From contig JAGVLJ010000001.1 of NCBI GenBank assembly GCA_020049855.1, positions 1 through 64,000 of the forward strand: a DNA stretch of 64,000 nucleotides, read 5' to 3'. The notes under the pieces were generated by a model, which had not been told where the DNA came from, ran no database searches, and was given only the letters and a program-made list of their open reading frames with translations. The position numbers were made by a program, and so were the translations under genes. Positions 12,678-34,884 of the stretch are shown in pieces; within the stretch, counting starts at the first letter, position 1, and every line of letters begins with the position of its first letter. This DNA is from Bacteroidia bacterium (GTDB taxonomy: Bacteria; Bacteroidota; Bacteroidia; UKL13-3).

Positions 12678-15254
12678 ATGAAGAAGTATATATTTTTATC
12701 TTTCATCAATACCTTCCTGTTTCAATCAGGTTACGGGCAATTGATACGTCCTCTTGACAAAGGATTACAGCAATACAACTCCAACATTCAAGCTATTTAC
12801 AGTTATGAAAATGACGCCTATGTGGCAACCAACACAGGTAGTATAAGTGTTGGGAGTAATTTTGAATACTCCATAAAAATTGCCAAATGGAACGGAATAA
12901 GTTGGAGCTATCTGCCTACACTTCGTGCCATTTCATCACTTGATATTCCGACAACCAATTATTTTATTAAAAATATGTGCGTATATAAAGAAGAGCTTTA
13001 TATATCCGGTATGTTTGATAGCATATCAGGGTTGGTCGGCTCATGTGGAATTATAAAATGGAATGGTTCTGCATATCAAAGTGTAGGGGGTGGGCTTGTA
13101 TTCTCAGATGTAATGAAACAAAATCCAATTAATGCTTCCGAAGGATTTTGGGGAATGGTGGTATGGAGAGAGAACCTCGTTATAGCCGCAGAAATTAAAC
13201 AGGCCGGCACAAAACAAGTAAGCAATATGGCCATGTGGAATGGAGGCGACTGGAGTTTTGTTGGAAAATCGGCCATTACTCAGGGTTTTATAAATACCAC
13301 TCCCGGATTAACTTTTAACAACTATTTTAAGGGAATAGGCGTGGACAATGTGCTTATCCTGCACGGAACGTTTACCTCAGTAGGTGGCAACCCATCTATC
13401 ACTGGTCTATCTTATTGCAGCGGTAATGATTCTTTGATCTGGAACAAAATAAATCCACAAACAAGTAACGATCAACTTTTCTATAACAACGTTTCTCATC
13501 TGATTTCTTATCCGAAGAATATAAATACTGGTGGAGTATTGTTATATTCTTCTGCGTTAAATAAATATGGTGAATTTAATTCCATTACAGGGTGGAGAAC
13601 AGTCTCGGAATTGCCATTTACACCACCTTTTCAGCCTAAAACGTACGGGTACGGTACAACCTCGCAACCACTTGTTTTTTGGCATAAAGGCACTTTCTGG
13701 GCTCTAGGATCAGATAACTACTTTTACAAAGATTTGAATAGTAAAAAATCTTTCTGCAAATCAACCGGATTTATTCCATCAAACTCTATGTATGTTCTAT
13801 CAAACTCATACCTGCCATCAAACATAATTCTTGGTGGCATATCAGTTTATGGAAATGACACGCTCAACAATGCCGGAGCATTTTTAACTGATAACGGAAT
13901 TCTATCCGGAAGAGTTTATATAGACCAAAACAACAATTGTTTACTTGATAACGGAGAGCCTTTAGTTAAAAATGCCCTTATAAGCAACGGAAGCGGATTT
14001 GTATCCAGTAACCAATCGGGCGTTTATTCAACTACCCTTCCAAAAGGAAAATACACGTTACAATTTATTAAGGCCGGCAAACACGTAACTCAGGTTTGTC
14101 CAGTAAGTTTTGGAACATACACCGATTCAAGTTACGTTGACAGTATCGTGAGCGGCTACGATTTTGCGTTGAAACCAAACCAAAGTGTAACCGACTTACA
14201 ACTTACCTTAATTGGTGAAACAGGATGGCGTGCACGTAGAGGCTTTACTGAAAATTATCTGCTCAAAGTACAAAATTTAGGCACTCTTCCGCTAAGTAAC
14301 TTTTCGGTTTACCTGCAATTAAGTGCGAAAACCGCAGCAAAACGATTTAATCCCCAACCCACGTTGGCGAGTGGAACAGTTTATAGATTTGATATCCCCA
14401 ATTTGACAACAGATGAGGTAAAAGACTATTCCTTTTCGTTACAAATTCCGGGATCGGATAGTGTTAATATTGGAGATAGTATTTTGCTGCTTGCCTATTT
14501 CTCCTCAAACATTAATGAGGCAGATTCAGACCTGACCAATAATTCGGATACTTTGGTTCAAACCATCACATCGGCATACGATCCAAACGACAAGCAATCC
14601 AACCCATTTATTTACGTATTTCCCAATGTAAAAAAGATAGACTATCAGATACGTTTTCAAAATTTAGGAACCGATACCGCCTATGGTGTAACTGTTTTGG
14701 ATACCGTTGATATGCGTTTACCGCTTAAGGAAATTACCATCAATGCAGCAAGTCATCCATATCGTTTCGCAGTAATAAATAATGTACTCTTTTGGCGATT
14801 TGATTTGATTATGCTTCCGCCAATAAAAACTGATGAACCACGCAGTAAGGGGTGGATTCGCTATTCTTCAAAATTAGCCCAAGGCCTGCCAATAGGAACC
14901 GAAATTTTGAACAAAGCATATATTTATTTTGATTATGAAAAAGCCGTAATCACCAACGAAGCCTTAATTCGATTGGTACAAGATACTTTAGCAACCGGAA
15001 TACCCGCAAAACCAAAAGCCCTTAATGAAACTATTCGTCTGTTCCCTAATCCTGCCGGAAGCTTTTTTGTATTGGAAAACACTGGTAGAGAAACTGAACC
15101 AATAGAAGTATATTCGCTTATTGGAGAAAAAATTCAGGTAATGTACTTAAAAGGCGAAACGCAACTCATCGTAAATACTATTGATTGGAAAAACGGAGTA
15201 TATTTTATAAAAAGTTCCGCAGCTAAGGCAGCAATACTGGTGATTCAACACTAA
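12678..15254 (+). CDS. T9SS type A sorting-domain secreted protein
   Basis: Signal peptide, DPNDKQSNP conserved-repeat motif, C-terminal domain (IRLFPNPAGSFFVLENTGRETEPIEVYSLIGEKI...NGVYFIKSSAAKAAILVIQH). Confidence 0.8.
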   Translation: MKKYIFLSFINTFLFQSGYGQLIRPLDKGLQQYNSNIQAIYSYENDAYVATNTGSISVGSNFEYSIKIAKWNGISWSYLPTLRAISSLDIPTTNYFIKNMCVYKEELYISGMFDSISGLVGSCGIIKWNGSAYQSVGGGLVFSDVMKQNPINASEGFWGMVVWRENLVIAAEIKQAGTKQVSNMAMWNGGDWSFVGKSAITQGFINTTPGLTFNNYFKGIGVDNVLILHGTFTSVGGNPSITGLSYCSGNDSLIWNKINPQTSNDQLFYNNVSHLISYPKNINTGGVLLYSSALNKYGEFNSITGWRTVSELPFTPPFQPKTYGYGTTSQPLVFWHKGTFWALGSDNYFYKDLNSKKSFCKSTGFIPSNSMYVLSNSYLPSNIILGGISVYGNDTLNNAGAFLTDNGILSGRVYIDQNNNCLLDNGEPLVKNALISNGSGFVSSNQSGVYSTTLPKGKYTLQFIKAGKHVTQVCPVSFGTYTDSSYVDSIVSGYDFALKPNQSVTDLQLTLIGETGWRARRGFTENYLLKVQNLGTLPLSNFSVYLQLSAKTAAKRFNPQPTLASGTVYRFDIPNLTTDEVKDYSFSLQIPGSDSVNIGDSILLLAYFSSNINEADSDLTNNSDTLVQTITSAYDPNDKQSNPFIYVFPNVKKIDYQIRFQNLGTDTAYGVTVLDTVDMRLPLKEITINAASHPYRFAVINNVLFWRFDLIMLPPIKTDEPRSKGWIRYSSKLAQGLPIGTEILNKAYIYFDYEKAVITNEALIRLVQDTLATGIPAKPKALNETIRLFPNPAGSFFVLENTGRETEPIEVYSLIGEKIQVMYLKGETQLIVNTIDWKNGVYFIKSSAAKAAILVIQH

Positions 15255-19468: not shown

Positions 19469-20119
19469 ATGGTGGTGCGTTGTATAGTATGTTTATTTTT
19501 TACCCTTTGGGTGCTGAATGTGTACGCGCAAAATATATCCCCTGTTTTTGTATTGCCAAACTATGCTGACACCATACTTGAAGCCGACAGGGATACATGT
19601 ATTGATATCAGCATAAACGCTCCCGAAACGGGAGATTCCGTCATTCTTTGGGGCGAGTCAGAACTATTTATTGATCGCGATACCACCGCTTATTTTCTTG
19701 AGAAAACCGGAATAGGCTCCTTACAGACACGTTTATGTTTTCGAAAGGCGTGCCGAAAGGTACAGGGTGACCCTTATTTTATTACCTTGTACGCACGCGA
19801 CAGTTCCTTTGATACAACAATTCATTATGTACGGGTAAGGTTCAAAAATAGTTTGCAGGAAGAACTGAGCAAGCTGCCCAATGTATTTACCCCCAACGGA
19901 GATAATCTAAATGATACATTTTCGCTCTCGGAAGCTAAGGCTCAATGCGAAAACTTATTTAATGTATACATCTACAACCGCTGGGGACAAGTGGTGTACT
20001 CCAATAATCGCATTTCGTTTAAGTGGGACGGGGGTAATTGTCCGGCAGGAGTTTATTATTACATCATCACCTCGTCAGGAGGAATTAATGCACAGGGAAT
20101 AATTACATTAATTCGTTGA
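19469..20119 (+). CDS. Gliding-motility-associated C-terminal domain protein (T9SS type B)
   Basis: LPNVFTPNGDNLNDTFSL...FNVYIYNRWGQVVYSNNRISFKWDGGNCPAGVYYYIITSSGG. Confidence 0.88.
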   Translation: MVVRCIVCLFFTLWVLNVYAQNISPVFVLPNYADTILEADRDTCIDISINAPETGDSVILWGESELFIDRDTTAYFLEKTGIGSLQTRLCFRKACRKVQGDPYFITLYARDSSFDTTIHYVRVRFKNSLQEELSKLPNVFTPNGDNLNDTFSLSEAKAQCENLFNVYIYNRWGQVVYSNNRISFKWDGGNCPAGVYYYIITSSGGINAQGIITLIR

Positions 20120-20599: not shown

Positions 20600-20701
20600 A
20601 AATTATTCCAAACCGCAATATATAAAACTGTACGAACTCAGCGGCAAAAAATACCTGCTTAACGGAAAAATACTTACTTACAGGTAAATGTAGTTGCAAA
20701 G

Positions 20702-21085
20702 ATGCACAAGGTTCTTGAATTTGTGGGCATGAAAACAATACTTGTGGTAGATGACGAAGTTATATTGCGTGAATACGTAACCGAATTGCTGGAACTGGAA
20801 GATTTTAAAGCTATAGGAGTTTCATCGGGAACCGAGGCACTTGCCGAAATAAGTCGTCAAAAACCCGACTTGGTTATTTGCGATATGTTTTTGAGAGAAG
20901 AAACCGCACTTGATTTACTTCATAAAATAAATACAACGGCAGGAGGAAATATTCCGTTCGTTCTTATATCAGGCGAAATTACCAATGAACTTTTGGAAAA
21001 AGGAAAGCAGCAGGGAGTAAAGGCTTTTATTAAAAAACCGTATGAAAGCGATATATTTCTAAACACTATTCGTAAGGTTCTTTAA
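20702..21085 (+). CDS. Single-domain response regulator (REC); start could also be the ATG at 20729
   Basis: TILVVDDEVILREYV, DLVICDMFLREETALDLL, FVLISGE, KAFIKKPY. Confidence 0.92.
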   Translation: MHKVLEFVGMKTILVVDDEVILREYVTELLELEDFKAIGVSSGTEALAEISRQKPDLVICDMFLREETALDLLHKINTTAGGNIPFVLISGEITNELLEKGKQQGVKAFIKKPYESDIFLNTIRKVL

Positions 21086-21162
21086 TCATTTTTTAGCCCC
21101 GATAGGCACATTGAGTTCTAAATAGTATATTAGCCTTGTAAATGCGATAGTAGCTAAGTGGT

Positions 21163-23157
21163 ATGAACCAACTTATAAAAATACACTTTTTTTTAATTCT
21201 GCTTTCTGTTACGCTAAGCACAATGGCCACTGTTACCGATAGCCTCGAAAAAGTTTTGCAATTTTCAATGCCTGATTCAACGCGCATTCAGGTAATGGGC
21301 GATTTGTGTTTTGCCTACCGCGCGAGCAATGCCGACAAGGCAAAATATTTTGGAAAGGAGGCACTGAAACTTTCATTAAAAACAAACAATCTGAAAGGAA
21401 TTGCTCAGTCATATAACGATTTGGGTATTCTGTTTTTCGATGAGGGGAATTATCCAAAAGCAATAGAATACTATAATGAATCCTTAAAGATAAGACAAAA
21501 ACTTGGAGATGAGAAAGGAATTGCAGCTATATATAACAAACTGGGGATTTTGCATCAAACAAAAGGGGAGTTTAAAGAGGCTCTTGGTTTTCAGTTTAAG
21601 GCTTTAAAAATTTACGAAGCCATTTCATTTGACTATGGAACGTCCTATTGCCTTAACAATATTGCCATCATTTATTACAACCTGAATAAATATGATGAGT
21701 CGCTTAAATTTCACAAGCAGTCTCTTTCCATTAAAGAGAAAATTAACGATCAATCGGGTATCAGTGGCTCGCTAAGCAATATCGGAAACATCTATTTCTC
21801 TCAGAAAAACTATTCTGAAGCGATTTCTCATTTTAAAAAGGCAGAGAAAATACAAAGAGAAAGAGAGGAGATTTATTATCTGGCAAGTACGCTCAACAAT
21901 TTAGGATCGTGCTACAAAAATTTAGAGAACTATAAAGAAGCCCTGAAGTATATTACCGAGTCGTATACCATCAGACTAAAACTGAATGATAAAGTTGGCC
22001 AAACCTCATGCCTCTTAAATACTGCACAAATTCAAATGCTCCGCAATCAATTTGGCTCTGCCATTGAGATGCTGCACAAAGGCCTTTCCATTGCACATGA
22101 ACTTGGGGCGAAAGATGAACTGGAAAACTATTATGAAAACCTGTCGGAAGCATACAAAGCAACAGGAGAACACAAAAAAGCACTCAGCTATTTTAAGTTA
22201 AGAAACGCTTATCGCGATTCGATTTACAGCGAGGAAAACAATAAGCAGATTGCCGAAATGCAAACCAAGTACGATACAGAGAAAAAAGAACAGCAAATTG
22301 AGTTGCTTACCCGCGAAAAGAAAATTAACGAAATAGTAAACGAACGAAAACAAAATACGCTTTTGTTAAGTTCAGCCGGATTGGGCTTAGCGGTGGTGCT
22401 GGTGCTTATAATTCTGTTCATGTACAGGCAAAAGGAAACGGCCAATAAAAGACTCATTCTACTTGATAAAGAAAAAAACGAGTTCCTTGGTATTGCCGCC
22501 CACGATCTGAAAAACCCCCTGCAAACCATTATAGGATTTTGCCAAATGCAGGCAGACTATTTTGACAAGCTCTCGAAAGAAAAAATTCTTAAATACTCTC
22601 AAAACATTGAGATTTCTGCCCGTAGAATGATTGAGTTAATAAATAATCTTCTTGACATTAACGCCATAGAGCAAGGGCGAATAAAAGGCAATCCCGAATT
22701 TTTTGATATGTATGAACAGGTATCCAAAACCCTGTCGAATTTCGATTATGCCGCTAAACAAAAAAATATTCAGTTTGTGCTTACCCGTAAAAATTCATTA
22801 ACGATTACCACCGATCGCTATATGTTTGCTCAGGTGTTTGAAAACTTAATGAGTAATGCCCTCAAATATTCTCCTACAAATAAGAAAATTTTCGTTGACC
22901 TGTTCTCTGACCAAATGACGGCCGGTTTTAGTATAAAGGATGAAGGACCTGGAATGAATACCGAAGACAAGAAAAAAATGTTTGGTAAGTTCACCCGATT
23001 AAGTGCCCGGCCTACCGGGGGCGAAACCAGCAATGGTCTTGGTCTTTCCATTGTGAAAAAACTTACTGATTTAATGGGAGGAAATATAATCTGCCAATCA
23101 GAGCTCGGTGACGGATGCTGTTTTATTGTGCGCTTTCCAATAACAACAGCCGTATGA
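21163..23157 (+). CDS. TPR-containing sensor histidine kinase
   Basis: TPR array, TM segment, H-box FLGIAAHDLKNPLQTI, N-box FENLMSNALKYSP, G1 DEGPGMN, G2 GLGLSIVKKL. Confidence 0.93.
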   Translation: MNQLIKIHFFLILLSVTLSTMATVTDSLEKVLQFSMPDSTRIQVMGDLCFAYRASNADKAKYFGKEALKLSLKTNNLKGIAQSYNDLGILFFDEGNYPKAIEYYNESLKIRQKLGDEKGIAAIYNKLGILHQTKGEFKEALGFQFKALKIYEAISFDYGTSYCLNNIAIIYYNLNKYDESLKFHKQSLSIKEKINDQSGISGSLSNIGNIYFSQKNYSEAISHFKKAEKIQREREEIYYLASTLNNLGSCYKNLENYKEALKYITESYTIRLKLNDKVGQTSCLLNTAQIQMLRNQFGSAIEMLHKGLSIAHELGAKDELENYYENLSEAYKATGEHKKALSYFKLRNAYRDSIYSEENNKQIAEMQTKYDTEKKEQQIELLTREKKINEIVNERKQNTLLLSSAGLGLAVVLVLIILFMYRQKETANKRLILLDKEKNEFLGIAAHDLKNPLQTIIGFCQMQADYFDKLSKEKILKYSQNIEISARRMIELINNLLDINAIEQGRIKGNPEFFDMYEQVSKTLSNFDYAAKQKNIQFVLTRKNSLTITTDRYMFAQVFENLMSNALKYSPTNKKIFVDLFSDQMTAGFSIKDEGPGMNTEDKKKMFGKFTRLSARPTGGETSNGLGLSIVKKLTDLMGGNIICQSELGDGCCFIVRFPITTAV

Positions 23158-24965
23158 AAAAAACGCTCCTTTTATTTTTGCATGCTGTTGCAATTTTTGC
23201 AGCTGGTGCTGTGAGCAGGGAACAACAACGAATTGACAGCCTCGAGGCTTTGCTTTCGACCACAACCGACACCACCCGAATGAGCATTTTACTCATTCTT
23301 TGTGGTGACTATATGAAAGCGGATCCCAAAAAGTTACTTTCCTATGGTACAGAGTTGGAGCATTTAGCTAACGCATCGGGTAACTGGGACTATAAAGCAC
23401 AGGGATTGCGCTATAAAGGAATTGGATTAAAGGCTACTGGCAAGTATAAGGAATCGGGGGATGCTTATCTTAAAGCACTCAAAATTTTCGAATCGCACCA
23501 AGATATTTTTGGTTCAGCCTCGTGCAATAATAGTTTAGGGGCACTTTATTTTAGCCTTAACGAATTAAGCAAAGCCGAATACTACTACCTTAAAACTATT
23601 GAACAATCAAAAAAGGCCGGTATTGACCGATTCCTTCCGTCAGCCTACAACAACTTAGGTGCCGTATATGCCATGCAAAAAAAGTATAATCAGGCATTGA
23701 TGTATTTTAACGAAGGGCTGAAACTGCGATTAAAGCAAAAAGACGAGTATGGTATTGCTTCGAGCTACGGAAACCTTGGACGCATTTACACGATTTTGGG
23801 TAGGTTTAAAAAAGCACTCGAGTTTCAGAAAAAAAGTCTTTCAATAAGAGAAACACTGAAAGACGAAGAAGGAGTTGCCAATACGCTGAACAATATCGGA
23901 GAAATATTTCTGGATGAGAAAAATTTTAACGAAGCCATAATCTGGTTTAATAAAGGGCTGGCGATTGCCAAACTGTTCGGGTATCAGGAATTAATCCGGT
24001 CGAGCTACGAGGCACTTTCCGAATGCCATGAAGGGTTGAAAAATTATGCGGCAGCGCATGAATATTTGAGTTTGAGTGTGGCCATAAAAGACAGCATGAT
24101 GAATATTGAGAACCGGAATCAGCTGGAGGAACTGACTACTCAATACGAAACCGAAAAGAAAGAACAGCAAATAAAAATACTTGCTAAAAACAACGAAATA
24201 AAAGAAGCAGAAAACAGCCGGAAACAACTATACATTTACCTTATTCTATCCGGTTCGGCTGTGGTGGTGGTGTTGCTTTTTGTTTTAATGCGCCTGTATA
24301 AACAAAAGGAACTGGCAAACAAAAAACTTAAAAAACTTGATGAGGAAAAAAACGAATTTTTAGGTTTGGCTGCGACCGATTTAAAAAAACCGCTCACCAC
24401 CATAATAGATTATTGCCGCATGCAGGCCGATTATTTTGATAAGCTCAATAAGGAAAAAATTCTTAAACACTCGGCCAATATCAAATTAGCTGCCTCCAAA
24501 ATGGTAGACCTCATCAGCAATTTGCTTGATGTAAATGCCATTGAGCAGGGAAGAATAAAAAACAATCCGGAGCGTATTGATTTGAATAAATTTTTTGACG
24601 ACTTGTTTAAAGAGTTTGAACAACATGCCAGAGAAAAAAATATTACCTTTAAAATAGACAACTCAGGCGGAAGCTACCATGTACATGCCGACCACCGCCT
24701 GCTGACACATGTAACCGAAAATCTGCTGGCAAATTCATTGAAAAATACAGACTCAAACACCCATATTTTTATAAAGTTACTTAAAAAAGAAGGCAAAGCG
24801 GGATACGAATTAACGGATTCAAAAAATCAGAAAACAAACAGCCAAGATGTCATTTTAGCAATGGGCATTATTAAGCGGATGCTGAACATAATGCAAGCCG
24901 AAATTGAAGTGAAAAACGACTCCTTCAGGGGCTCAGTGGTCACCATTTTATTAAGCGAAGGATGA
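23154..24965 (+). CDS. TPR-containing histidine-kinase-like pseudokinase
   Basis: Paralogous to the preceding ORF; H-box reads FLGLAATDLKKPLTTI (His to Thr); no G1 or G2 motifs; ATG overlaps the previous stop (ATGA). Confidence 0.85.
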   Translation: MKKTLLLFLHAVAIFAAGAVSREQQRIDSLEALLSTTTDTTRMSILLILCGDYMKADPKKLLSYGTELEHLANASGNWDYKAQGLRYKGIGLKATGKYKESGDAYLKALKIFESHQDIFGSASCNNSLGALYFSLNELSKAEYYYLKTIEQSKKAGIDRFLPSAYNNLGAVYAMQKKYNQALMYFNEGLKLRLKQKDEYGIASSYGNLGRIYTILGRFKKALEFQKKSLSIRETLKDEEGVANTLNNIGEIFLDEKNFNEAIIWFNKGLAIAKLFGYQELIRSSYEALSECHEGLKNYAAAHEYLSLSVAIKDSMMNIENRNQLEELTTQYETEKKEQQIKILAKNNEIKEAENSRKQLYIYLILSGSAVVVVLLFVLMRLYKQKELANKKLKKLDEEKNEFLGLAATDLKKPLTTIIDYCRMQADYFDKLNKEKILKHSANIKLAASKMVDLISNLLDVNAIEQGRIKNNPERIDLNKFFDDLFKEFEQHAREKNITFKIDNSGGSYHVHADHRLLTHVTENLLANSLKNTDSNTHIFIKLLKKEGKAGYELTDSKNQKTNSQDVILAMGIIKRMLNIMQAEIEVKNDSFRGSVVTILLSEG

Positions 24966-25576
24966 TGATGAATAAAAACAAACTTCACCTACAAGGGTTA
25001 AAATATCAGCTTAGTTCACATTTTTTATTTAACGTATTGAACACCGTGAGGGCACTCACGCGAAAAAACACCGAAAAGGCTGCAAGTATAATAACCCTTA
25101 CCAGCGAATACCTGCGGTATGCCCTGCATAAACTCGATCATTTTGAAACCACATTGGGCGAAGAAAAAAACGGTATTGAACTTTTCCTGCATTTACAGTC
25201 ATATCGTTTTCATGATCCCATCGTTATGAGATGGAATATTCCCGAAAATCTTCTGCTTGCCAAAATTCCTTCCTTTCTATTGCAGCCACTAATAGAGTCG
25301 CTTTATAAAAAAGCAGATAAAGATGCCGAAGGAAGACAACAAATAGCTCTTGAAGCACTCGTAAAAAATAAAAATCTGATTCTGTCCATTTACTGCCCAA
25401 AATGCCTTCCCGACAAAGAAGCAGCAGGTATCTTTGTTCCTAAAAGTGACGTAGAACAAGGGGTGGAACAAGTTTATGTTCTATTGCGAGAGTTATATGA
25501 AGGAAAGGCTGAAATAGAAATCATTGAAAAAGGGAACTCAAAAAAAATTCGGCTCCAAATTCCATATAAAACATGA
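24962..25576 (+). CDS. Degenerate LytS-type (His_kinase/YehU-like) protein
   Basis: LKYQLSSHFLFNVLNTVRALTRKNTEKAASIITLTSEYLRYAL matches the His_kinase core; the N-box position reads LLQPLIESLYKKADKD; no GxGL motif. Confidence 0.75.
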   Translation: MMMNKNKLHLQGLKYQLSSHFLFNVLNTVRALTRKNTEKAASIITLTSEYLRYALHKLDHFETTLGEEKNGIELFLHLQSYRFHDPIVMRWNIPENLLLAKIPSFLLQPLIESLYKKADKDAEGRQQIALEALVKNKNLILSIYCPKCLPDKEAAGIFVPKSDVEQGVEQVYVLLRELYEGKAEIEIIEKGNSKKIRLQIPYKT

Positions 25577-26310
25577 AAACAAAATTAAAAGCAATAATTG
25601 TAGATGACGAACCCTATGCACGTGCAGAGCTGGCAGAGTTGCTGGTGTCCTACAATAGGGTTGAACTAATTGGAGAAGCAGGCTCTCTCACAGAGGCTGT
25701 AGAAATGATTGAAACAAATAAGCCCGATGTGGTTTTTTTGGATATTGAGATGAATGGAGAAAATGGCTTTGAATTACTCAACCTGTGCGATATTGAATTT
25801 AAAACCGTTTTTGTAACCGCCTATAATCAATATGCCATACGAGCTTTTGAGGTAAACGCCATTGACTACCTTCTTAAACCCGTGAATACACAACGACTTG
25901 CACAAACATTAAAAAAATTAGGAGACCTGACAAGTGCTGAGCAGGAAGCCTCAAGCGGCTTACCAAAGCTTACTGCCAATGACCGCCTGTTAGTTACCCT
26001 TAGCCGAAAAATGAACTTTATAAAAATCTGTGATATTAAATACATAGTAGCAGCCGGAGATTATTCAGAACTGGTTACCGTGAATAACGAGCATGCTTTG
26101 GTACAACGTAAAATGCGTGAGTGGGAAGTTCAGTTGCCCGAAAAAAACTTTCAGCGTATTCACCGCACCACCATTATCAACCTTGATTTTGTTGACAAAA
26201 TTGAACGATACGGAAAAGAAAATGCCCTCGTGTTTATGAAAGGGGTTGAAAAGCACCTTGACATTAGTAAAAACTACCTCTCCGAATTAAAAAGCCGGTT
26301 TAAAGTATAG
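25573..26310 (+). CDS. LytTR-family response regulator
   Basis: REC domain (IIVDDEPYARAELAELL, DVVFLDIEMNGENGFELL, VTAYNQYAIRAFEVNAIDYLLKPV) and LytTR domain (YIVAAGDYSELVTVN...FQRIHRTTIINLDFVDKIERYG). Confidence 0.93.
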   Translation: MKTKLKAIIVDDEPYARAELAELLVSYNRVELIGEAGSLTEAVEMIETNKPDVVFLDIEMNGENGFELLNLCDIEFKTVFVTAYNQYAIRAFEVNAIDYLLKPVNTQRLAQTLKKLGDLTSAEQEASSGLPKLTANDRLLVTLSRKMNFIKICDIKYIVAAGDYSELVTVNNEHALVQRKMREWEVQLPEKNFQRIHRTTIINLDFVDKIERYGKENALVFMKGVEKHLDISKNYLSELKSRFKV

Positions 26311-26392
26311 GCATTACCCCTTGCTTTCGCTGTATTCACCGATTCATTTCGCCATTGGGCGAAAATGGTGCATAGTTGCTGTTTTCGTTAAA

Positions 26393-26400
26393 TACTTTTG
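26393..26400 (+). promoter_or_regulatory. Candidate Bacteroidota -7 box (TACTTTTG) upstream of the giant repeat gene
   Basis: Matches TAnnTTTG about 36 nt upstream of the ATG at 26437; no TTG at ideal -33 spacing seen. Confidence 0.4.
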
Positions 26401-26436
26401 ATTGCTATTATTTTCCCAAAATTAAAACCCTACAAT

Positions 26437-29400
26437 ATGAAACAAACAATTACCTACTTTTATACCTTGCTCGGGTTAGCTCTGGGTATGGTTGTAAATC
26501 CGGTGAATTTGCAGGCTCAGTGCGGAATTGCCTCACAGGTTAAACCCGTTGTATCCGCGTCAACCGTGTGCTCGGGAAATTCTGTTACGATGTCAGTATT
26601 TGGCCTTCCGGTAAACACCTGGATTTACCGTGACAATGCCGGAGTATGGCAAAACATGTTCACCGGATCAACAACCACATATACACACTACAGCACATCA
26701 GTAAGTTTTGCCACCACCCGTGAATATCGCGCAGTAGTATCGGCTACGGGTTGTACTATCGACACCACATTGGCAGCCATAGTAACACTTGTTCCGGTCA
26801 CCTACGGAAACAGCAGTGTGTTACCTGCCACTTCCACAAACACGATTTGTTCGAATTCCAATATCATGTTTAGCGTTCGCAACGACCTTCAGGTAAGCGG
26901 TTGGTATTATCGCGATAATGGAGTTGGTTCTTTTAACTATTTTGCGGGCTCTAATCAATTCAGCACCTCTTTTTCTGTGGGTACCACTACTAACCGGGAA
27001 ATAAAAGTGCTTACCCGTCAGCCCAACTCTTGTCAGGTGGATAGTTCACAAAGCATCACCATTACTGTTCAGCCACGTACCGGGATAATAAATCCTGCTA
27101 TCGGAATTTCTACCAGCACCCCTGTGGTTTGCGCGGGGAGCTCGGTTAGCCTTCAGTTAAATTCTTCCTATTCCGGAAGCATTAACTGGCTGTATCGTAA
27201 CAGCGGCACCACCAGTTGGACTTATTTTTCGGCTTCTCCCAACGCTACTGATGCCAACACAACGGTTACCGCCAATACCACCCGTGAATACCGCATTGTT
27301 TTGCAATCAACCACCGGATGTACTTATGACTCTTCGTCCATTATTACAGCGCTCATTAACGCCCCTGTGCCGGGCAACCTGCGCAGTTTAAAACCTTCAA
27401 CCTCAACTCCGGTTATTTGTACCGGAAGTTCCTCTTCCGTTTCAGTTTCTACCGGTTATTCAGGCTCAGTAATTCGCTGGTTATATCGCGACAATAATGC
27501 CGGGAGCTGGAATATATTATCAAGCACATCTACTTCGGTTACGCAATCAATTAATGTTACTTCGGTTACTACAAGAGCTTATCGTGTATTGCTAAGAAAT
27601 GTTGCCTTGTGCAGGCAGGATACTTCGGAAGAAATAACTGTTTTGGTGAACCCTTTTACATATGGAAACACTACAAAAGTTTCTCCTTTGATACAACATC
27701 AAACTATCTGCTCAGGATATAATGCGCTGCTTTCGGTTCCTTCGGGGGTAAACGTGCAAAACTGGCTATACCGAACCAATGGCGGCATCTGGCAATATTT
27801 TTCAAGCGGACAAACAGTTTATGATTATAACACCAGCGTTACAACTTCCACCAACCGCGACTACGTGGTACTGGTGCGCGATAATTCATCTTGCAGCATT
27901 GACACAAGTACTGTGGCAAGTGTTACCATTAAACCTACCGTTTACGGAAGTTTACCATACCAGATTACACCGAATGTAACTACACCGATGGTTTGCTACG
28001 GAAACGCCTCACAAGTTGGTTTTACGCTTAACGGAAACTACCAGATATTAAAATGGATTTATAAAGACAATGCCGGAACATGGGCCGATAACAGCAGTAC
28101 GGGTTCAACCCTGTATGATTACAACACTTCAGTAAGCACAAACACCAATCGTACATACCGGGCTATTATTCGCAATAACGAAAGCTGTATTGCCGACTCA
28201 ACACAACCTGCTTCGGTAGTTATAAATACAAGGGCATATGGAAATCTTACCTCGGTTGCGCCCACAGCAGGGGCGACAAGTGTTTGTAGTGGAACTTCGG
28301 TTTCGCTTAGTACCACTTTGCCTACAAACTATTCTTCGGTTCAGGCATGGTACAGGCGCGACAGTGTTACCGGTTTTTGGACAAACTTTGGTTCGGGAAC
28401 AAGCGTTAACGATAATGGTACCACTATCACCGCATCGGTAAACCGTGAGTATCGCTCCTTGTTTTACAGCAGCTCCCAATGTCGTTTTGATACCTCTGAT
28501 GCCTCGTATGTAACCATAAATATAAGAACAAGAACTGCCAACAACAGCGTGGCTCCGCAACTTAGCACAACAGGGTTGGTATGCAGCGGAAAAAATATTT
28601 CTTCATATATTAATTTGCCATCGGGAACATCGGTGCAAAAGTGGATTTACCGAGACGGAAGCACCGGTAACTGGCTGGATGTTTCGGGCTCCAGTGCCTC
28701 TACCAGCTATACTGATACGAAAACAGGGGTATTGGTAAACACCCAACGTTTTTACCGCGTAATTTTTACCAATAACAATACCTGTTCTATTGATACTTCT
28801 GCTTCGCTTGGCGTTTCCATTCAAGCCGTGAGCGGAGGAACTACCAGCAGCTATGTACCAACTGCATCGGTCGGCAATATTTGTTCGGGAACATCGGTAT
28901 TCATCAATGCATCTACGGGTGTTAGTTCAATCGATGCCATAAGATGGATATACAAAGACAATAGCGGCTCATGGCTCGATGCCATCAGCGGAAGCAATAG
29001 TTTTTCAGACCCAAGTTCCAACACCTTAACTTCTTCAAATATCCTAAGAAGTTACCGCCTGATTCATTACCGCAGCGGAGCATGTGTGATTGATACCACT
29101 TCATCTGTTTCAGTTAATATTAATGCCCGTACCTTCGGAATCAAAATGGTAGCTCCATCTGTTAGCCCTACTGCTGCCTGTGCCACAACTAATATAAATA
29201 TTGTTGTTTCGCTAGCTTCGGGTGACCAGATTCAAAAATATATTTCGCGCGACAATGCCGGAGCCTGGAGAGATATGATGTACACCTCCGCTTCCAGTAT
29301 AACAGACCAGAATACAAACGTAAGTGTAAACACCACCCGCGACTACCGTGTAATATTATATAATAACAACAGCTGCTCTTACGATACATCATTAGCGGCA

Positions 29401-32400
29401 ACCGTCACCATCAATCCAATGCAAAACGGGGTAAATACATCGGTAACTCCGGTTGCAACAACTACCAGTATGTGTGCAGGTGCAACTGCATCGGTAAACG
29501 TGAGCAGTACCATTGGTTCGCTTACCGTAAAAGGATGGATATACCGGGACAATAACGGTGCGTGGATGCCGGGACAAACGGGTACTTCCACTAGCTTTAA
29601 CCAAACCACCTACACGGGTATTGCTTCCAATATTAATCGTGAGTACCGCGCTTTGGTAACACGTGGCAGTGGTTGCGGAATTGATACATCGGCCGGAGTT
29701 ACTGTGGTTATTAATAAACAAACCAACGGATACATAACAAATGCCCCCAACATCCTGGTCAATCCATTTTGCGTAGCATCTGGAACTGCGGTTGGTATAA
29801 ATATAACAGCACCTTCTGGGTACTCTGTTTTACGCTGGCAGACAAGAGACAATAATGGTAGTTGGGATGAATTCTCTTACTCTACATCGGCAACATTAAT
29901 TAACGATTATAATATTAATGTTTCGGCTGCAGTCAGTCGCCAATACCGCGTAATTGCAAGCAGCAGCACCAATTGCAGCATTGACACCTCGGCCACGACT
30001 ACCATTACCATCAATCCGCTTACTGGGGGAACCATAAACACGGTTACCCCAACCATCTCTTCCACTACGGTTTGTTATGGGCAGAATGCGACCGTGAGTG
30101 TAAGTCTTCCATCGGGTTATTCTATGGTGAAATGGGTGTATTCAGATAACAACGGGCCATTAAAAGACTTTTATACTTCGGCAACCGGAACTTCATTCTC
30201 TGACAACAATACACAAGTGCAAACTACCGTGGCAAGAACCTATTATGCCATTATACAAAGCAGCACTAACTGCCGCAAAGATACTTCGCTGGGACTTGGA
30301 GTAACCATTTTGCCCTGGAGCATCAATACAGGAGCGCTTAGTTCGGTTACGCCAACATCAAATCCAACAGGCGGAATTTGTTCGGGAAACAGTGTTTCGC
30401 TAAATGTAAATCCTGGAGCCAACAACTCAGTTTACAAATGGATTTATACGCAATACCCAACGGGTTCGTTCAGCGGGCCAACTTACGATATATTAAACAG
30501 CGCAAGCACATCGGTAACACACAGTAACACATTTATCAGTTCTGCGGCAACAAGGCTTTACCGCGCAGTAGTAAGAAATAATGCAGCCTGCCGGTTAGAT
30601 ACCACCAACTCGGTTTGGGTTAATATCAACCTGCAATCATTCGGATCGGATACTAATTTGGTTATTTCGGCTGTTGATACCGTTTGTTCTTCTGCTTCAC
30701 TCAATCTTTCTATCTCTACCACCGGAAGTATTATCAACTGGCTTTACCGGGATAACAACGGACCATTAAATATTATTCCATCAAGTGCAGGTGTAAGTTC
30801 AATAACCGACAATAACACAACAGCAAGCACCGGAGTAAACAGAAAATACTATGTTTTGGTTTTCAGAAGTGTGAATTGCAAAACCGATACTTCAAAAGTA
30901 AAATCGGTTTACCTCAAAGCAAGGACAGCCGGAAACAGCTCCACCAAAGCCGTTATTTCGGTTGATACGGTTTGTATAGGAACTTCTTCGGTAAGCACGA
31001 GTATTTCCGCATCCAATGTGCTGAAATGGATATACCGCGATAACTTTAGCGGCAACTGGAATGTGATTCCTTCGAGTGCATCAAGTTTCCTTTCACACAA
31101 TATCAGCAATGTTACCAGCATAACAAGCCGTGAATACAGAGCTATTTTCGTAAGCACCTCGTGCAGCGAAGACACTTCTGTTGCCGATACCGTTGTTATC
31201 AAAACCCTTGCTTACGGGAATTTTACCGGCCTAACCCCAACCAGCTTAAACAACGTAAGCTGTAACGGAAACAGTGCAACCATAAGTATAATTCCCGGAA
31301 GCGGAAACACTGTAGTAAAATGGATTTACAGAAACAACAACACCGGCTCGTGGCTCGACTTTTCAACTACTACCAGCACCTCCATTACCGACTACAACAC
31401 CTATGTAAGCACTCCGCAAACACGTGTGTACCGGGTTATCATTCGCAGGGCATGCAGCAACGATACCACTGACGGGTACACCTTGTCGCTGTTGCCAAGG
31501 GGAAAAGGAAATGACAACACGCTTACCCCTACCGTGAACAACAGTACTGTTTGTACAGGAAGTTCGGTAACAGCATCTCTCACTCCCGGCAGCGGAAAAA
31601 TCATTACCATGTGGTTATACCGCAACGGCAACAGCGGTGCATGGAGTATACTAAGCTACACTTCATTAACCAGCGTAACGGACAACTATACCGTAATTGC
31701 ATCAACCACTACCCGCCAGTACTGCGCGATAGTGTATAACACCACTTTGTGCAGCGATGATACTACCAATAGTGTAAGTGTAACCATTAACCCGGTAACC
31801 GTAGGCACTACCAACATTAATCCTATGGTAGCTAATTCTACCGTATGTGTTGGTAATTTTTCTTCGGTAAGTATCAATCCGGGTACAGGTGCTTCGGTGG
31901 TAGGCTGGTTGTACAATGTAAGCGGAGGTGCATGGATGCCTTTTGGCTACACTACAAGCACCAGCATCAATGATTACAATACCAATTTCGGCAGCATCAC
32001 TACTAAAGCATACCGTGCGTTAATTTATACCTCCTCACCTTGCCGTATTGATACATCTAACTCAGTAAGCGTAACAATTACCCCGCGCACTTTTGGCAAC
32101 GATAACAGTTTTACCTTTACCGCACCAAGTCCGGTTTGCTCTGGTAGCAGCGCAAGCGTAAGCATTAGCGCCCTCGGGTCGGGCAACACCATTCAACGCT
32201 GGTTGTACAGAGATAACAGTACCGGAGCATGGAATTCCATTTATTCAACCTCTTCGGCTATCTCTGACAATAACACTTATGTATCCGCTGTAACCACGCG
32301 CACATACCGTACATTAATTGTGAAAGGAAATACCTGCACCATTGATACATCAAATGGGGTAAATGTTACCATCAATCCGGTGGGGGCAGGAAACGACAAC

Positions 32401-34884
32401 ACCATTACACCCACAGGAACCAACTCATATTGTACCGGAGCAGCAGTAAGTGTATCCGTTTCTCCGGGCAGTGGCAACAGCGTTTCTGGCTGGATTTACC
32501 GACTTAACAACTCCGGAGCATGGCAAACATATATTTCATATAACACCAACTCGTTTGTTGATTATAACACCTCGGTTTCTTCAACCACCATCAAATCCTA
32601 TCGTGCCCTGATTTATAAACCTGGTGTGTGCCGCATTGATACTTCGGCTGAGGCAACAGCTACCATCAACCCGCGCACCTATGGAAATCTGGGTACCTCC
32701 CCAACAGCATCAAGTACCAATGTGTGTTCAGGTTCTTCGGTTGCCATAAGCATTTCAACCAGCGGAACAGTAAACTACTGGCTCTATAAAGACAATAGCG
32801 GAAGCTGGACAACCTACAACTATCCATACACAAGCTTCTATGATTATAATACTAACGTAGGAAATACTACCACGCGTCAATATCGGGCCATTATCAATTC
32901 CTCAACCGGATGTACCATTGATACCTCGGCTGTATTATCTATTACCATCAGCCCACGTACCTATGGAAACAGCAGCACTACACCAACCGTAAATAACAGT
33001 ACCGTCTGCTCAGGAACACAAGTGGTGGCTCAGGTTGCCATTGGTGCAGGAAGTTCAGTAATAAAATGGATGTACCGCGATAACAATACCGGAATCTGGA
33101 TTGACGGATCGTATAGCAGCTCGGCCACGTATTACGATTACAACACAACTGTTGCAAGCAATATATCCAGAAGTTATCGCGCTTTGATTTTAAGCGGAAC
33201 CGGGTGCAGCATTGATACCACAAATGCAGTAAATGTAGCCATTAACCCAATAGGAAAAGGAAACTCAAGCAGTACCCCTACAGCAGCCAACTCAACCGTG
33301 TGTGCAGGTAATACCGTTAGTGTAATTTTTAACACAGGCAATGTGATGCAGTGGTTGTATCGCGATGGAGCCACAGGTGCATGGATTTCACTTGGCACGT
33401 CCGGATCAACCATGTATGACTATAATACCAATGTGGGCAATAACACCGCGCGTAATTACCGCGCCATTGTGTATAATACCGCAGCTTGCAGCTACGATAC
33501 CACCAATGCTGTTACAGTTAACATCAACCTACTTACCCTTGGAAATAGCACACAGGCTCCAATTATCTCAAATGGTACGATTTGTTCTGGTAACCTATCG
33601 TCTGTTTCATTAACCCCGGCAAACGGATATGTACAAAACTGGATGTATCGAGATGGAGGAACAGGTGCATGGACTGTTCTCACAAGCTTTGCTTCTAATA
33701 GCTATAATGATTACAATACCACCGTGACTTCCCAGATGAACAGAGAATACCGCGCAATTATTCGCAATCAGAGTACTTGTAGTCTAGATACATCGGCCGG
33801 CACTACCGTAATCATTAAGCCTATTGGAAAAAACACCGACCTTAGCTTTAAACCTCAGGTATCACAGAGCATGATTTGTTCCGGAGCAGGAATTACCCTT
33901 TCGTTCAGCAGCAACCCTACGGTTCAGGTTTGGATGTATCGCGACTCGGTAGTTGATAACTGGAGCCAGTTAAGCAGTGGAAATTACTTTACACATTATG
34001 GCACATACACCTCAACCGTAAAACACCGTACCTACGTGGCGCTGCTGTACAATACCTCTACCTGCTCTATTGACACTTCTGATATTGTATCGGTAACCAT
34101 CAACCCGAATACAAGCGGCAACGTGAACATTGTTCCCGTTACAGCCAATGCAGCCATTTGCAGTGGTAACTTTACCTCGGCAAAAATTGCAGGTTATATT
34201 GGGCAAATTCAATACTGGATATTTCGCAACAATAACGAGCCATGGAATATTCTAAGCTCAACAGCCGACAGCATTTCACAATCTAATGCCGGCACCACAG
34301 TAACCTCACTTACCAACCGTCAGTATCGGGCAATTATTTATACCGGTTGTAATACCGACTCTACACAGGTCCTTTCCGTTTCCATTGATATTGCCCCTGC
34401 CATTCCAATTGTAACAAAAACGGCAGGAGATACACTGGTATGTTCAACTTCCATCGGTGTAACTTACAAGTGGATTCGAAACGGAGTGGATATTCCCGGG
34501 GCTACCTCACAAAAATTTAAACCAACACAAAGCGGAAGTTATGTGGTAGAAATCTCAAATGCCAATGGCTGTAAGGCTGCTTCTGTACCGTATAACTTTA
34601 TTCCTACTTCATCAGGAGCTTCAATCTCAGCTAAAATAGCAGCCAAAGTATATCCGAACCCAACCGAAAACGGAGAAGTAACCGTACTGATTAACGGAAT
34701 AAATGCTGAAACGGTGAATTTCACGGTAATGAATGCTATGGGTCAGGTGGTGATTGGAAAACAACAAACCAACTTAATCAACTCGCAGTTTACCGTTCAT
34801 CTGGAGAATATGATGCATGGCTTGTATTTTATTCTGATTGAAGCCGAAGGAAAAACAAGCACTTTACCGCTTATTCGAAAATAA
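26437..34884 (+). CDS. Giant (~2815 aa) secreted repeat protein with T9SS type A sorting domain
   Basis: Signal peptide; 27 modules with the pattern CSGxxVxxx...W-[ILM]-YRDNxxGxW...YNTxVSxxTxRxYRA...CxxDTSxxVxVTINPxxxGN, then an Ig-like module, then CTD AAKVYPNPTENGEVTVLINGINAETVNFTVMNAMGQVV...LIRK. Confidence 0.9.
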   Translation: MKQTITYFYTLLGLALGMVVNPVNLQAQCGIASQVKPVVSASTVCSGNSVTMSVFGLPVNTWIYRDNAGVWQNMFTGSTTTYTHYSTSVSFATTREYRAVVSATGCTIDTTLAAIVTLVPVTYGNSSVLPATSTNTICSNSNIMFSVRNDLQVSGWYYRDNGVGSFNYFAGSNQFSTSFSVGTTTNREIKVLTRQPNSCQVDSSQSITITVQPRTGIINPAIGISTSTPVVCAGSSVSLQLNSSYSGSINWLYRNSGTTSWTYFSASPNATDANTTVTANTTREYRIVLQSTTGCTYDSSSIITALINAPVPGNLRSLKPSTSTPVICTGSSSSVSVSTGYSGSVIRWLYRDNNAGSWNILSSTSTSVTQSINVTSVTTRAYRVLLRNVALCRQDTSEEITVLVNPFTYGNTTKVSPLIQHQTICSGYNALLSVPSGVNVQNWLYRTNGGIWQYFSSGQTVYDYNTSVTTSTNRDYVVLVRDNSSCSIDTSTVASVTIKPTVYGSLPYQITPNVTTPMVCYGNASQVGFTLNGNYQILKWIYKDNAGTWADNSSTGSTLYDYNTSVSTNTNRTYRAIIRNNESCIADSTQPASVVINTRAYGNLTSVAPTAGATSVCSGTSVSLSTTLPTNYSSVQAWYRRDSVTGFWTNFGSGTSVNDNGTTITASVNREYRSLFYSSSQCRFDTSDASYVTINIRTRTANNSVAPQLSTTGLVCSGKNISSYINLPSGTSVQKWIYRDGSTGNWLDVSGSSASTSYTDTKTGVLVNTQRFYRVIFTNNNTCSIDTSASLGVSIQAVSGGTTSSYVPTASVGNICSGTSVFINASTGVSSIDAIRWIYKDNSGSWLDAISGSNSFSDPSSNTLTSSNILRSYRLIHYRSGACVIDTTSSVSVNINARTFGIKMVAPSVSPTAACATTNINIVVSLASGDQIQKYISRDNAGAWRDMMYTSASSITDQNTNVSVNTTRDYRVILYNNNSCSYDTSLAATVTINPMQNGVNTSVTPVATTTSMCAGATASVNVSSTIGSLTVKGWIYRDNNGAWMPGQTGTSTSFNQTTYTGIASNINREYRALVTRGSGCGIDTSAGVTVVINKQTNGYITNAPNILVNPFCVASGTAVGINITAPSGYSVLRWQTRDNNGSWDEFSYSTSATLINDYNINVSAAVSRQYRVIASSSTNCSIDTSATTTITINPLTGGTINTVTPTISSTTVCYGQNATVSVSLPSGYSMVKWVYSDNNGPLKDFYTSATGTSFSDNNTQVQTTVARTYYAIIQSSTNCRKDTSLGLGVTILPWSINTGALSSVTPTSNPTGGICSGNSVSLNVNPGANNSVYKWIYTQYPTGSFSGPTYDILNSASTSVTHSNTFISSAATRLYRAVVRNNAACRLDTTNSVWVNINLQSFGSDTNLVISAVDTVCSSASLNLSISTTGSIINWLYRDNNGPLNIIPSSAGVSSITDNNTTASTGVNRKYYVLVFRSVNCKTDTSKVKSVYLKARTAGNSSTKAVISVDTVCIGTSSVSTSISASNVLKWIYRDNFSGNWNVIPSSASSFLSHNISNVTSITSREYRAIFVSTSCSEDTSVADTVVIKTLAYGNFTGLTPTSLNNVSCNGNSATISIIPGSGNTVVKWIYRNNNTGSWLDFSTTTSTSITDYNTYVSTPQTRVYRVIIRRACSNDTTDGYTLSLLPRGKGNDNTLTPTVNNSTVCTGSSVTASLTPGSGKIITMWLYRNGNSGAWSILSYTSLTSVTDNYTVIASTTTRQYCAIVYNTTLCSDDTTNSVSVTINPVTVGTTNINPMVANSTVCVGNFSSVSINPGTGASVVGWLYNVSGGAWMPFGYTTSTSINDYNTNFGSITTKAYRALIYTSSPCRIDTSNSVSVTITPRTFGNDNSFTFTAPSPVCSGSSASVSISALGSGNTIQRWLYRDNSTGAWNSIYSTSSAISDNNTYVSAVTTRTYRTLIVKGNTCTIDTSNGVNVTINPVGAGNDNTITPTGTNSYCTGAAVSVSVSPGSGNSVSGWIYRLNNSGAWQTYISYNTNSFVDYNTSVSSTTIKSYRALIYKPGVCRIDTSAEATATINPRTYGNLGTSPTASSTNVCSGSSVAISISTSGTVNYWLYKDNSGSWTTYNYPYTSFYDYNTNVGNTTTRQYRAIINSSTGCTIDTSAVLSITISPRTYGNSSTTPTVNNSTVCSGTQVVAQVAIGAGSSVIKWMYRDNNTGIWIDGSYSSSATYYDYNTTVASNISRSYRALILSGTGCSIDTTNAVNVAINPIGKGNSSSTPTAANSTVCAGNTVSVIFNTGNVMQWLYRDGATGAWISLGTSGSTMYDYNTNVGNNTARNYRAIVYNTAACSYDTTNAVTVNINLLTLGNSTQAPIISNGTICSGNLSSVSLTPANGYVQNWMYRDGGTGAWTVLTSFASNSYNDYNTTVTSQMNREYRAIIRNQSTCSLDTSAGTTVIIKPIGKNTDLSFKPQVSQSMICSGAGITLSFSSNPTVQVWMYRDSVVDNWSQLSSGNYFTHYGTYTSTVKHRTYVALLYNTSTCSIDTSDIVSVTINPNTSGNVNIVPVTANAAICSGNFTSAKIAGYIGQIQYWIFRNNNEPWNILSSTADSISQSNAGTTVTSLTNRQYRAIIYTGCNTDSTQVLSVSIDIAPAIPIVTKTAGDTLVCSTSIGVTYKWIRNGVDIPGATSQKFKPTQSGSYVVEISNANGCKAASVPYNFIPTSSGASISAKIAAKVYPNPTENGEVTVLINGINAETVNFTVMNAMGQVVIGKQQTNLINSQFTVHLENMMHGLYFILIEAEGKTSTLPLIRK

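Follow-up and report, generated by a model that had tools for sequence, protein, structure and literature searches.

A conserved cluster of five genes from an uncultured genus of Bacteroidia may encode a compact phosphorelay with a LytS-derived phosphotransferase and a pseudokinase

We analyzed a window of 64,000 nucleotides of DNA from a Bacteroidia bacterium (assembly GCA_020049855.1, contig JAGVLJ010000001.1, positions 1 to 64,000) and focused on five adjacent genes of its forward strand, at 20702-26310. These genes encode a single-domain response regulator (RR, protein P0005), an active histidine kinase (HK1, P0001), a kinase-like paralogue (HK2, P0002), a short LytS-like protein (P0003) and a response regulator with a LytTR DNA-binding domain. 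With moderate confidence, based on sequence, structural models and analogy with known systems, we read the five genes as a compact four-step phosphorelay, in which the phosphoryl group would pass from HK1 to RR, then to P0003 and then to the LytTR regulator, with HK2 tuning HK1. An earlier, sequence-only reading of this stretch described the four genes from HK1 to the LytTR gene; it overlooked the RR gene upstream and, downstream, the gene of a giant protein sorted by the type IX secretion system (T9SS).

The genus is uncultured and has three available genomes: the window genome (G000), Bacteroidia bacterium SSF48 (G002) and the bin Gw_SlAct_bin_253 (G001), the most diverged of the three. All three showed the same order, RR, HK1, HK2, P0003, LytTR and the giant protein, so the four-gene order recognized in the sequence-only reading is conserved in the relatives as well. 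In the window, HK1 (21163-23157), HK2 (23154-24965), P0003 (24962-25576) and the LytTR gene (25573-26310) are linked, as that reading had noted, by three stop/start overlaps of 4 bp each. The gene order as well as the motif losses described below recur in the two related genomes, save that HK2 is intact in G001, and the pattern therefore exceeds chance. An active kinase (HK1), two kinase-like proteins of non-canonical type (HK2 and P0003) and the LytTR regulator make up a conserved unit.

The relay is proposed because the Spo0F-Spo0B, CckA-ChpT and SdrG-PhyT steps are built in this way, from a lone receiver combined with a kinase-derived protein that kept the active His and lost the ATP site. 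The second of these components is P0003, a soluble protein of 204 amino acids that has no transmembrane sensor. Its only Pfam family was PF06580 (E 2e-17, residues 9-85, cutoff passed), and no HATPase match was found in the Pfam search. We compared P0003 with 104 canonical LytS homologues taken from the loci retrieved. Among these, His20, the preceding Pro19 and the N-box Asn113 were present in 104/104 sequences, Arg174 in 102/104 and Gly165 in 94/104 (numbering of P0003). In the three P0003 orthologues His20 (25019-25021 in the window) was kept together with its flank HFxFNxxN, while Pro19 was replaced by Ser, Ser and Gln, Asn113 by Ser, Leu and Gln (Ser113 in the window genome), Gly165 by Glu and Arg174 by Leu. 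A new conserved stretch, PKSDxExGVE, occupied the place of the lid and G2 region. The sequence-only reading was thus right that the H-box core survives and that the N-box and the GxGL motif are lost; the substitutions P19S, G165E and R174L had escaped it.

The orthologues of P0003 were 40-79% identical to each other, and the ratio of nonsynonymous to synonymous substitution rates (dN/dS) was 0.14; P0003 is thus a maintained protein. Here and below, dN/dS was computed between G000 and G002, with dS of about 0.7-0.9. Since the degeneration is found genus-wide, in proteins only about 40% identical to the G001 orthologue, it appears to be old and constrained.

Structure prediction, which the sequence-only reading had suggested as a check of the kinase-like proteins, gave for P0003 a dimerization and histidine phosphotransfer (DHp) hairpin followed by a Bergerat-like domain (AlphaFold2 with a 61-row alignment; predicted local distance difference test score, pLDDT, 88; predicted template modeling score 0.85). 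Foldseek matches in the PDB included the bacterial phosphotransferase 4QPK (E 5e-6). Judged by sequence and model, P0003 has the anatomy of the phosphotransferases derived from degenerate kinases (Spo0B, ChpT and PhyT), i.e. a His-bearing DHp domain joined to a Bergerat-like domain devoid of ATP motifs. As a catalytic LytS kinase it fails, with Asn113 and Gly165 of the GxGL box replaced in all three orthologues. No Spo0B or ChpT Pfam match was found for the three orthologues, which matched PF06580 alone (at E limits of 1 for P0003 and 10 for the G001 and G002 proteins). P0003 is a PF06580 protein by descent, with the H-box HFLFN, and not a LytS kinase, similar to Spo0B and ChpT in its proposed working and not in its sequence. 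Two further LytS proteins are encoded in the genome; both are intact membrane kinases whose genes overlap LytTR genes of their own by 4 bp. Thus, P0003 sits in a kinase's place. The earlier suggestion that such proteins act as scaffolds suits P0003 less well: because the His was kept and only ATP binding was lost in all three genomes, P0003 is better read as a putative phosphotransferase.

We assessed the spread of P0003 with a three-sequence profile, searching 64 genomes from the order and 396 from the phylum. Only the genus members scored at about 350-400 bits; the best match of the phylum outside the genus had 112 bits, compared to 396. The matches outside the genus, at 112 bits or below, were ordinary LytS kinases, and none of the phylum matches listed had an open frame shorter than 290 amino acids. 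We also observed LytS-like frames of 242 and 250 amino acids in other genera of the family (G018:C143:10757-11209 and G050:C106:1093-1500), which may be truncated by contig ends or sensorless. A pattern scan for P0003-like proteins covered 84,980 species; among the matches listed, the two known relatives alone exceeded the background of ordinary LytS proteins. The five-gene block was not found outside the genus in the genomes searched, and no description of a LytS-type phosphotransferase was found among the papers searched.

The other component, the RR, is encoded directly upstream of the kinases (20702-21085; PF00072, E 1e-18), a position that it also holds in G001 and G002. An N-terminal extension (20702-20728) is absent from the ORF (open reading frame) listed for G002; therefore, the ATG at 20729 is the likelier start. 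The catalytic residues, DDE, Asp61 (20882-20884), Ser90 and Lys112, were invariant in the three genomes, and dN/dS was 0.12. Being a lone receiver with the Asp, the DD pair, the S/T and the Lys intact, the protein is CheY/Spo0F-like; Spo0F chains were among its 16 PDB sequence matches at E <= 1e-8. In helix alpha1, which docks kinases, 14/15 residues were identical between G002 and G001 compared to about 31% elsewhere (Fisher p 1.5e-5, for a region chosen post hoc).

HK1 is a protein of 664 amino acids with tetratricopeptide repeats (TPR), a transmembrane segment, HisKA and HATPase_c domains (Pfam). Its H-, N-, G1-, F- and G2-boxes are intact in all three genomes, in agreement with the sequence-only reading; the active residue is His447 (22501-22503), and dN/dS was 0.09. 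HK2, of 603 amino acids, shares with HK1 the arrangement of TPR, transmembrane segment and DHp domain and is its paralogue at 34% identity, with a degenerate catalytic and ATP-binding (CA) domain; its HisKA and HATPase_c matches fell below the gathering scores (20 and 17 bits). As was said in the sequence-only reading, the H-box reads AATDLKKPL, with Thr408 (24375-24377) in place of the His, and G1 and G2 are lost, the G2 stretch being LAMGIIKRM. Beyond that reading, we found that about 20 residues (20 alignment columns) spanning the F-box and the ATP lid are deleted, and that degradation of the N-box (ENLLANSLK) is partial, with both Asn kept. Both kinases resemble FimS-type TPR kinases (Porphyromonas gingivalis, NF053520) only below the family cut-off: against a threshold of 600, HK1 scored 245 bits and HK2 136 bits, so both fail.

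The change of His to Thr and the loss of G1, F-box and lid are common to G000 and G002. In G001, however, the kinase at the HK2 position is intact throughout (AAHDLKNPL, GLGLSIVKKL), and for this reason the catalytic loss of HK2 is lineage-specific. The Thr is thus conserved in one of the two relatives. The dN/dS of HK2 was 0.11 (bootstrap 95% range 0.08-0.15), and that of the CA remnant was 0.09; therefore, HK2 in G000 and G002 is a pseudokinase maintained by purifying selection and not a wreck. The sequence-only reading had held that orthologues with intact His and G-boxes would speak for lineage-specific decay. Such an ortholog exists in G001, and the sequences indicate that this applies to the origin of HK2 and not to its function, as the dead form is under selection in the other two genomes. 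For the model of HK2 (pLDDT 81), the leading PDB matches included DivL (4Q20) and RetS. By its predicted DHp-CA fold, its lost His and catalysis, and its selection, HK2 fits the class of HisKA pseudokinases that includes DivL and RetS, with the regulatory contact to a kinase being a prediction.

Across the three genomes, HK1 and HK2 were 66-93% identical in their DHp domains, compared to 24-32% for TPR and 21-46% for CA regions in the paralogous or inter-lineage comparisons. Within one genome the identity of the HK1 and HK2 DHp domains was about 70% (68-73%), and the next-best DHp in 117 genomes was 37% identical. This pattern of DHp and alpha1 conservation would be expected if HK1 and HK2 present a common DHp surface to RR as a fixed partner; we regard it as suggestive. 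Concerted evolution of the DHp domains was considered and found no support, since the identity between HK1 and HK2 within genomes (68-73%) is not above that between genomes (66-78%). In the HK1/HK2 tree the six genus sequences made one clade (support 100/99) with unresolved inner forks, and the dead HK2 branch had a length of 1.34 changes per column. A role of HK2 as a phosphatase was also considered: the Asn at position H+4 is Lys in G000 and Asn in G002, so this residue state is not shared.

The last protein of the proposed chain, the LytTR regulator, has a receiver (PF00072; Asp57 at 25741-25743) and the PF04397 domain. It is 71-90% identical to its relatives, and its dN/dS was 0.07. In the three genomes, every phosphosite in the proposed His-Asp-His-Asp chain is invariant. 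We infer the direction of the phosphoryl flow, the HK1-HK2 contact and the LytTR target as follows. HK1, given its intact motifs, would sense through the TPR region, autophosphorylate on His447 and pass the phosphoryl group to Asp61 of RR. RR would phosphorylate His20 of P0003, which, judging by its anatomy, may work without ATP as a dimeric histidine phosphotransferase like Spo0B, ChpT and PhyT, and P0003 would in turn phosphorylate Asp57 of the LytTR regulator. The latter may control the operon that encodes it and/or the giant secreted surface protein next to it, as its position and the conserved intergenic DNA suggest. HK2, a selected pseudokinase still offering the shared DHp surface, would most likely tune HK1 by heterodimerization or by binding RR, for which RetS with GacS and DivL with DivK could serve as precedents. 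The RR gene, located just upstream, would supply the single-domain receiver that such a chain needs, so a phosphorelay is a more economical explanation than a partner phosphorylated directly.

Several observations weigh against this reading. A gap of 77 bp separates RR from HK1, and synteny extends over the whole block; the presence of RR could therefore reflect neighborhood alone. The alpha1 region was picked after the alignment had been viewed, and only three genomes exist. Foldseek ranked an active LytS-type kinase, GanS, first for P0003, and the fold alone does not say phosphotransferase. The replacement of Pro19, invariant before the active His in the canonical homologues, could impair His20. 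Finally, HK1 could phosphorylate the LytTR regulator or RR without a relay.

The main rival, which we hold to be unlikely, is a heteromeric sensor working without a relay. HK1 and HK2, possibly with P0003, would form mixed dimers or complexes, and the CA domain of HK1 would drive direct phosphorylation of LytTR; P0003 would be a scaffold or a phosphoacceptor and RR a bystander or a sink. The FasBCA system of Streptococcus is the model for this: two kinase-like proteins, one of them a proposed pseudokinase, are encoded in one operon with a ComE-like regulator, FasA, and FasB and FasC heterodimerize, with the kinase domain of FasC being dispensable (PMC12675982). The DHp identity of about 70% within one genome makes the heteromer of pseudokinase and active kinase, envisaged already in the sequence-only reading, plausible, and translational coupling favors stoichiometric complexes. 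However, P0003 belongs to PF06580 and HK1 and HK2 to PF00512, so mixing of their DHp domains is unlikely. The conserved RR, with its intact active site and near-invariant alpha1, is left unexplained; besides, both kinases of G001 look active, yet P0003 is equally degenerate there. FasBCA also differs in that its pseudokinase keeps a phosphorylated His, and a single-domain receiver or a phosphotransferase step is not described there. By analogy, a FasBC-like heterodimer could also describe the HK1-HK2 step inside the relay.

Less probable still is that P0003 is a dedicated phosphatase or sequestering factor of LytTR, i.e. a negative regulator, with HK1 acting through RR on another output. Histidine-kinase cores devoid of autokinase activity can retain phosphatase activity. 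PhyT, moreover, was first described as a phosphatase of PhyR and also sequesters it (PMC5898713). Against this, His20 and HFxFNxxN, kept in 3/3 genomes, would be needless for a pure sequestering protein; no alternative kinase for LytTR is encoded nearby, and the other two LytS kinases have LytTR partners of their own. Simple decay, with HK2 and P0003 as functionless leftovers of an ancestral pair of systems, draws on the intact HK2 of G001 and the long branch of the dead form, but it is very improbable and largely refuted by the selection test (dN/dS 0.11 for HK2 and 0.14 for P0003), by the open frames and unbroken overlaps, and by the genus-wide conservation of P0003 at about 40% identity to G001.

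Returning to the phosphorelay, we compared it with the known systems. In Sphingomonas, PhyT carries the phosphoryl group from the single-domain SdrG to PhyR by way of a conserved His, although its ATPase domain is degenerate, and the Pak-SdrG-PhyT-PhyR relay of the general stress response has likewise a kinase, a single-domain RR, a degenerate kinase with a kept His as phosphotransferase, and an output regulator (PMC5898713). PhyT, however, is a membrane protein with a DHp of the HRxxN type (HWE/HisKA_2-like), whereas P0003 is soluble and LytS-type (PF06580); the output there controls a sigma factor and the Pak and SdrG genes are scattered, compared to a LytTR output and one cluster here. In Caulobacter, ChpT is likewise a dimer of two-domain subunits whose ATP pocket is closed and which does not autophosphorylate (PMC3433190), and DivL, a pseudokinase of the CckA circuit, reads the state of a response regulator with its catalytic region (PMC4211667, PMC9430884). 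The CckA-ChpT-CtrA circuit with DivL and DivK shows the same set of parts: an active kinase, a pseudokinase with a replaced His, a single-domain receiver, a dimeric phosphotransferase with a closed ATP site and a DNA-binding regulator. It differs in that P0003 has no ChpT Pfam match, CckA is a hybrid kinase, and DivL has Tyr where HK2 has Thr. To our knowledge, the Caulobacter CckA, ChpT, CtrA, DivL and DivK genes are not in one operon.

The Spo0F-Spo0B-Spo0A sporulation relay of Bacillus has also a single-domain receiver and a dimeric, kinase-derived DHp phosphotransferase, but P0003 has no Spo0B Pfam match and the output here is LytTR and not a Spo0A-type domain. As in GacS/RetS, a non-canonical kinase would tune an active one by DHp contact, and structures of RetS are among the matches to the HK2 model. 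Unlike HK2, RetS is a hybrid protein that carries receivers, and it is not known to be an operon neighbor of GacS. From the LytS/BtsS-type PF06580 kinases P0003 derives, and it overlaps its own LytTR gene as they do; unlike them, it has no transmembrane sensor, N-box, G-boxes or Pro before the His, and has 204 amino acids compared to about 350.

For the intergenic DNA, identity between G000 and G002 was weighed against the level of about 70% at third codon positions (binomial test). The region upstream of RR (20600-20701, forward strand), a probable promoter region, was 84% identical (p 7e-4), and the region before the giant gene (26311-26436, forward strand), a candidate promoter or LytTR site, was 86% identical (p 1.5e-5). 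The RR-HK1 gap was 61% identical, below the third-position level. Conserved DNA before RR and none in the RR-HK1 gap are consistent with one transcript that includes RR; the simplest reading would be one promoter before RR and, in front of the giant gene, a second one that may be under LytTR control. The inference for 20600-20701 is weakened, since this region also serves a divergent thioredoxin-like gene. Promoter scans of the sequence gave no more matches than in shuffles. In G001, two small minus-strand ORFs (L021 5613-6715), absent from the other two genomes, lie between the thioredoxin-like gene and RR; RR still adjoins HK1 there. A terminator scan showed a 13-pair stem-loop followed by T-rich DNA at 26358-26389, between the LytTR and giant genes, which is largely kept in G002.

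The giant protein (26437-34884, forward strand) has about 2,800 amino acids, with Ig-like repeats (Ig_7) and a C-terminal sorting domain of type IX secretion (Por_Secre_tail), and is the likely output gene. A protein of the same family is in the same place in G001 (C102) and G002 (C38); it is strongly conserved in the genus, with 68-91% identity over a 207-residue segment, and its gene directly follows the LytTR gene. Nothing of comparable similarity and length was found in the other genera searched. Further T9SS-sorted proteins are encoded near the cluster at 19469-20119 and 12678-15254 (CHU_C; Por_Secre_tail with DUF7619).

The system is real, conserved and well constrained, and the mechanism is plausible. 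A further proposal, on which we lean slightly to the doubtful side, is that P0003 is a LytS-derived (PF06580) phosphotransferase of an origin separate from Spo0B, ChpT and PhyT, placed in one operon with a kinase, a receiver, a LytTR regulator and a paralogous pseudokinase that died only after the genus diversified; it would make the cluster a convergent, self-contained Bacteroidota counterpart of the CckA/DivL/DivK/ChpT/CtrA circuit. Phosphotransferases made from dead histidine kinases are already known from a few systems, and a LytS-derived case, if true, would mean that kinases of different families have undergone such a conversion repeatedly. The same kinase position is alive in G001 and dead in G000 and G002, so the change from kinase to pseudokinase, and what the operon gains by it, can be compared side by side, and the giant secreted protein next door is a concrete candidate output. 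If true, the relays governing sporulation and the cell cycle in other bacteria would have in this cluster a counterpart that evolved separately.

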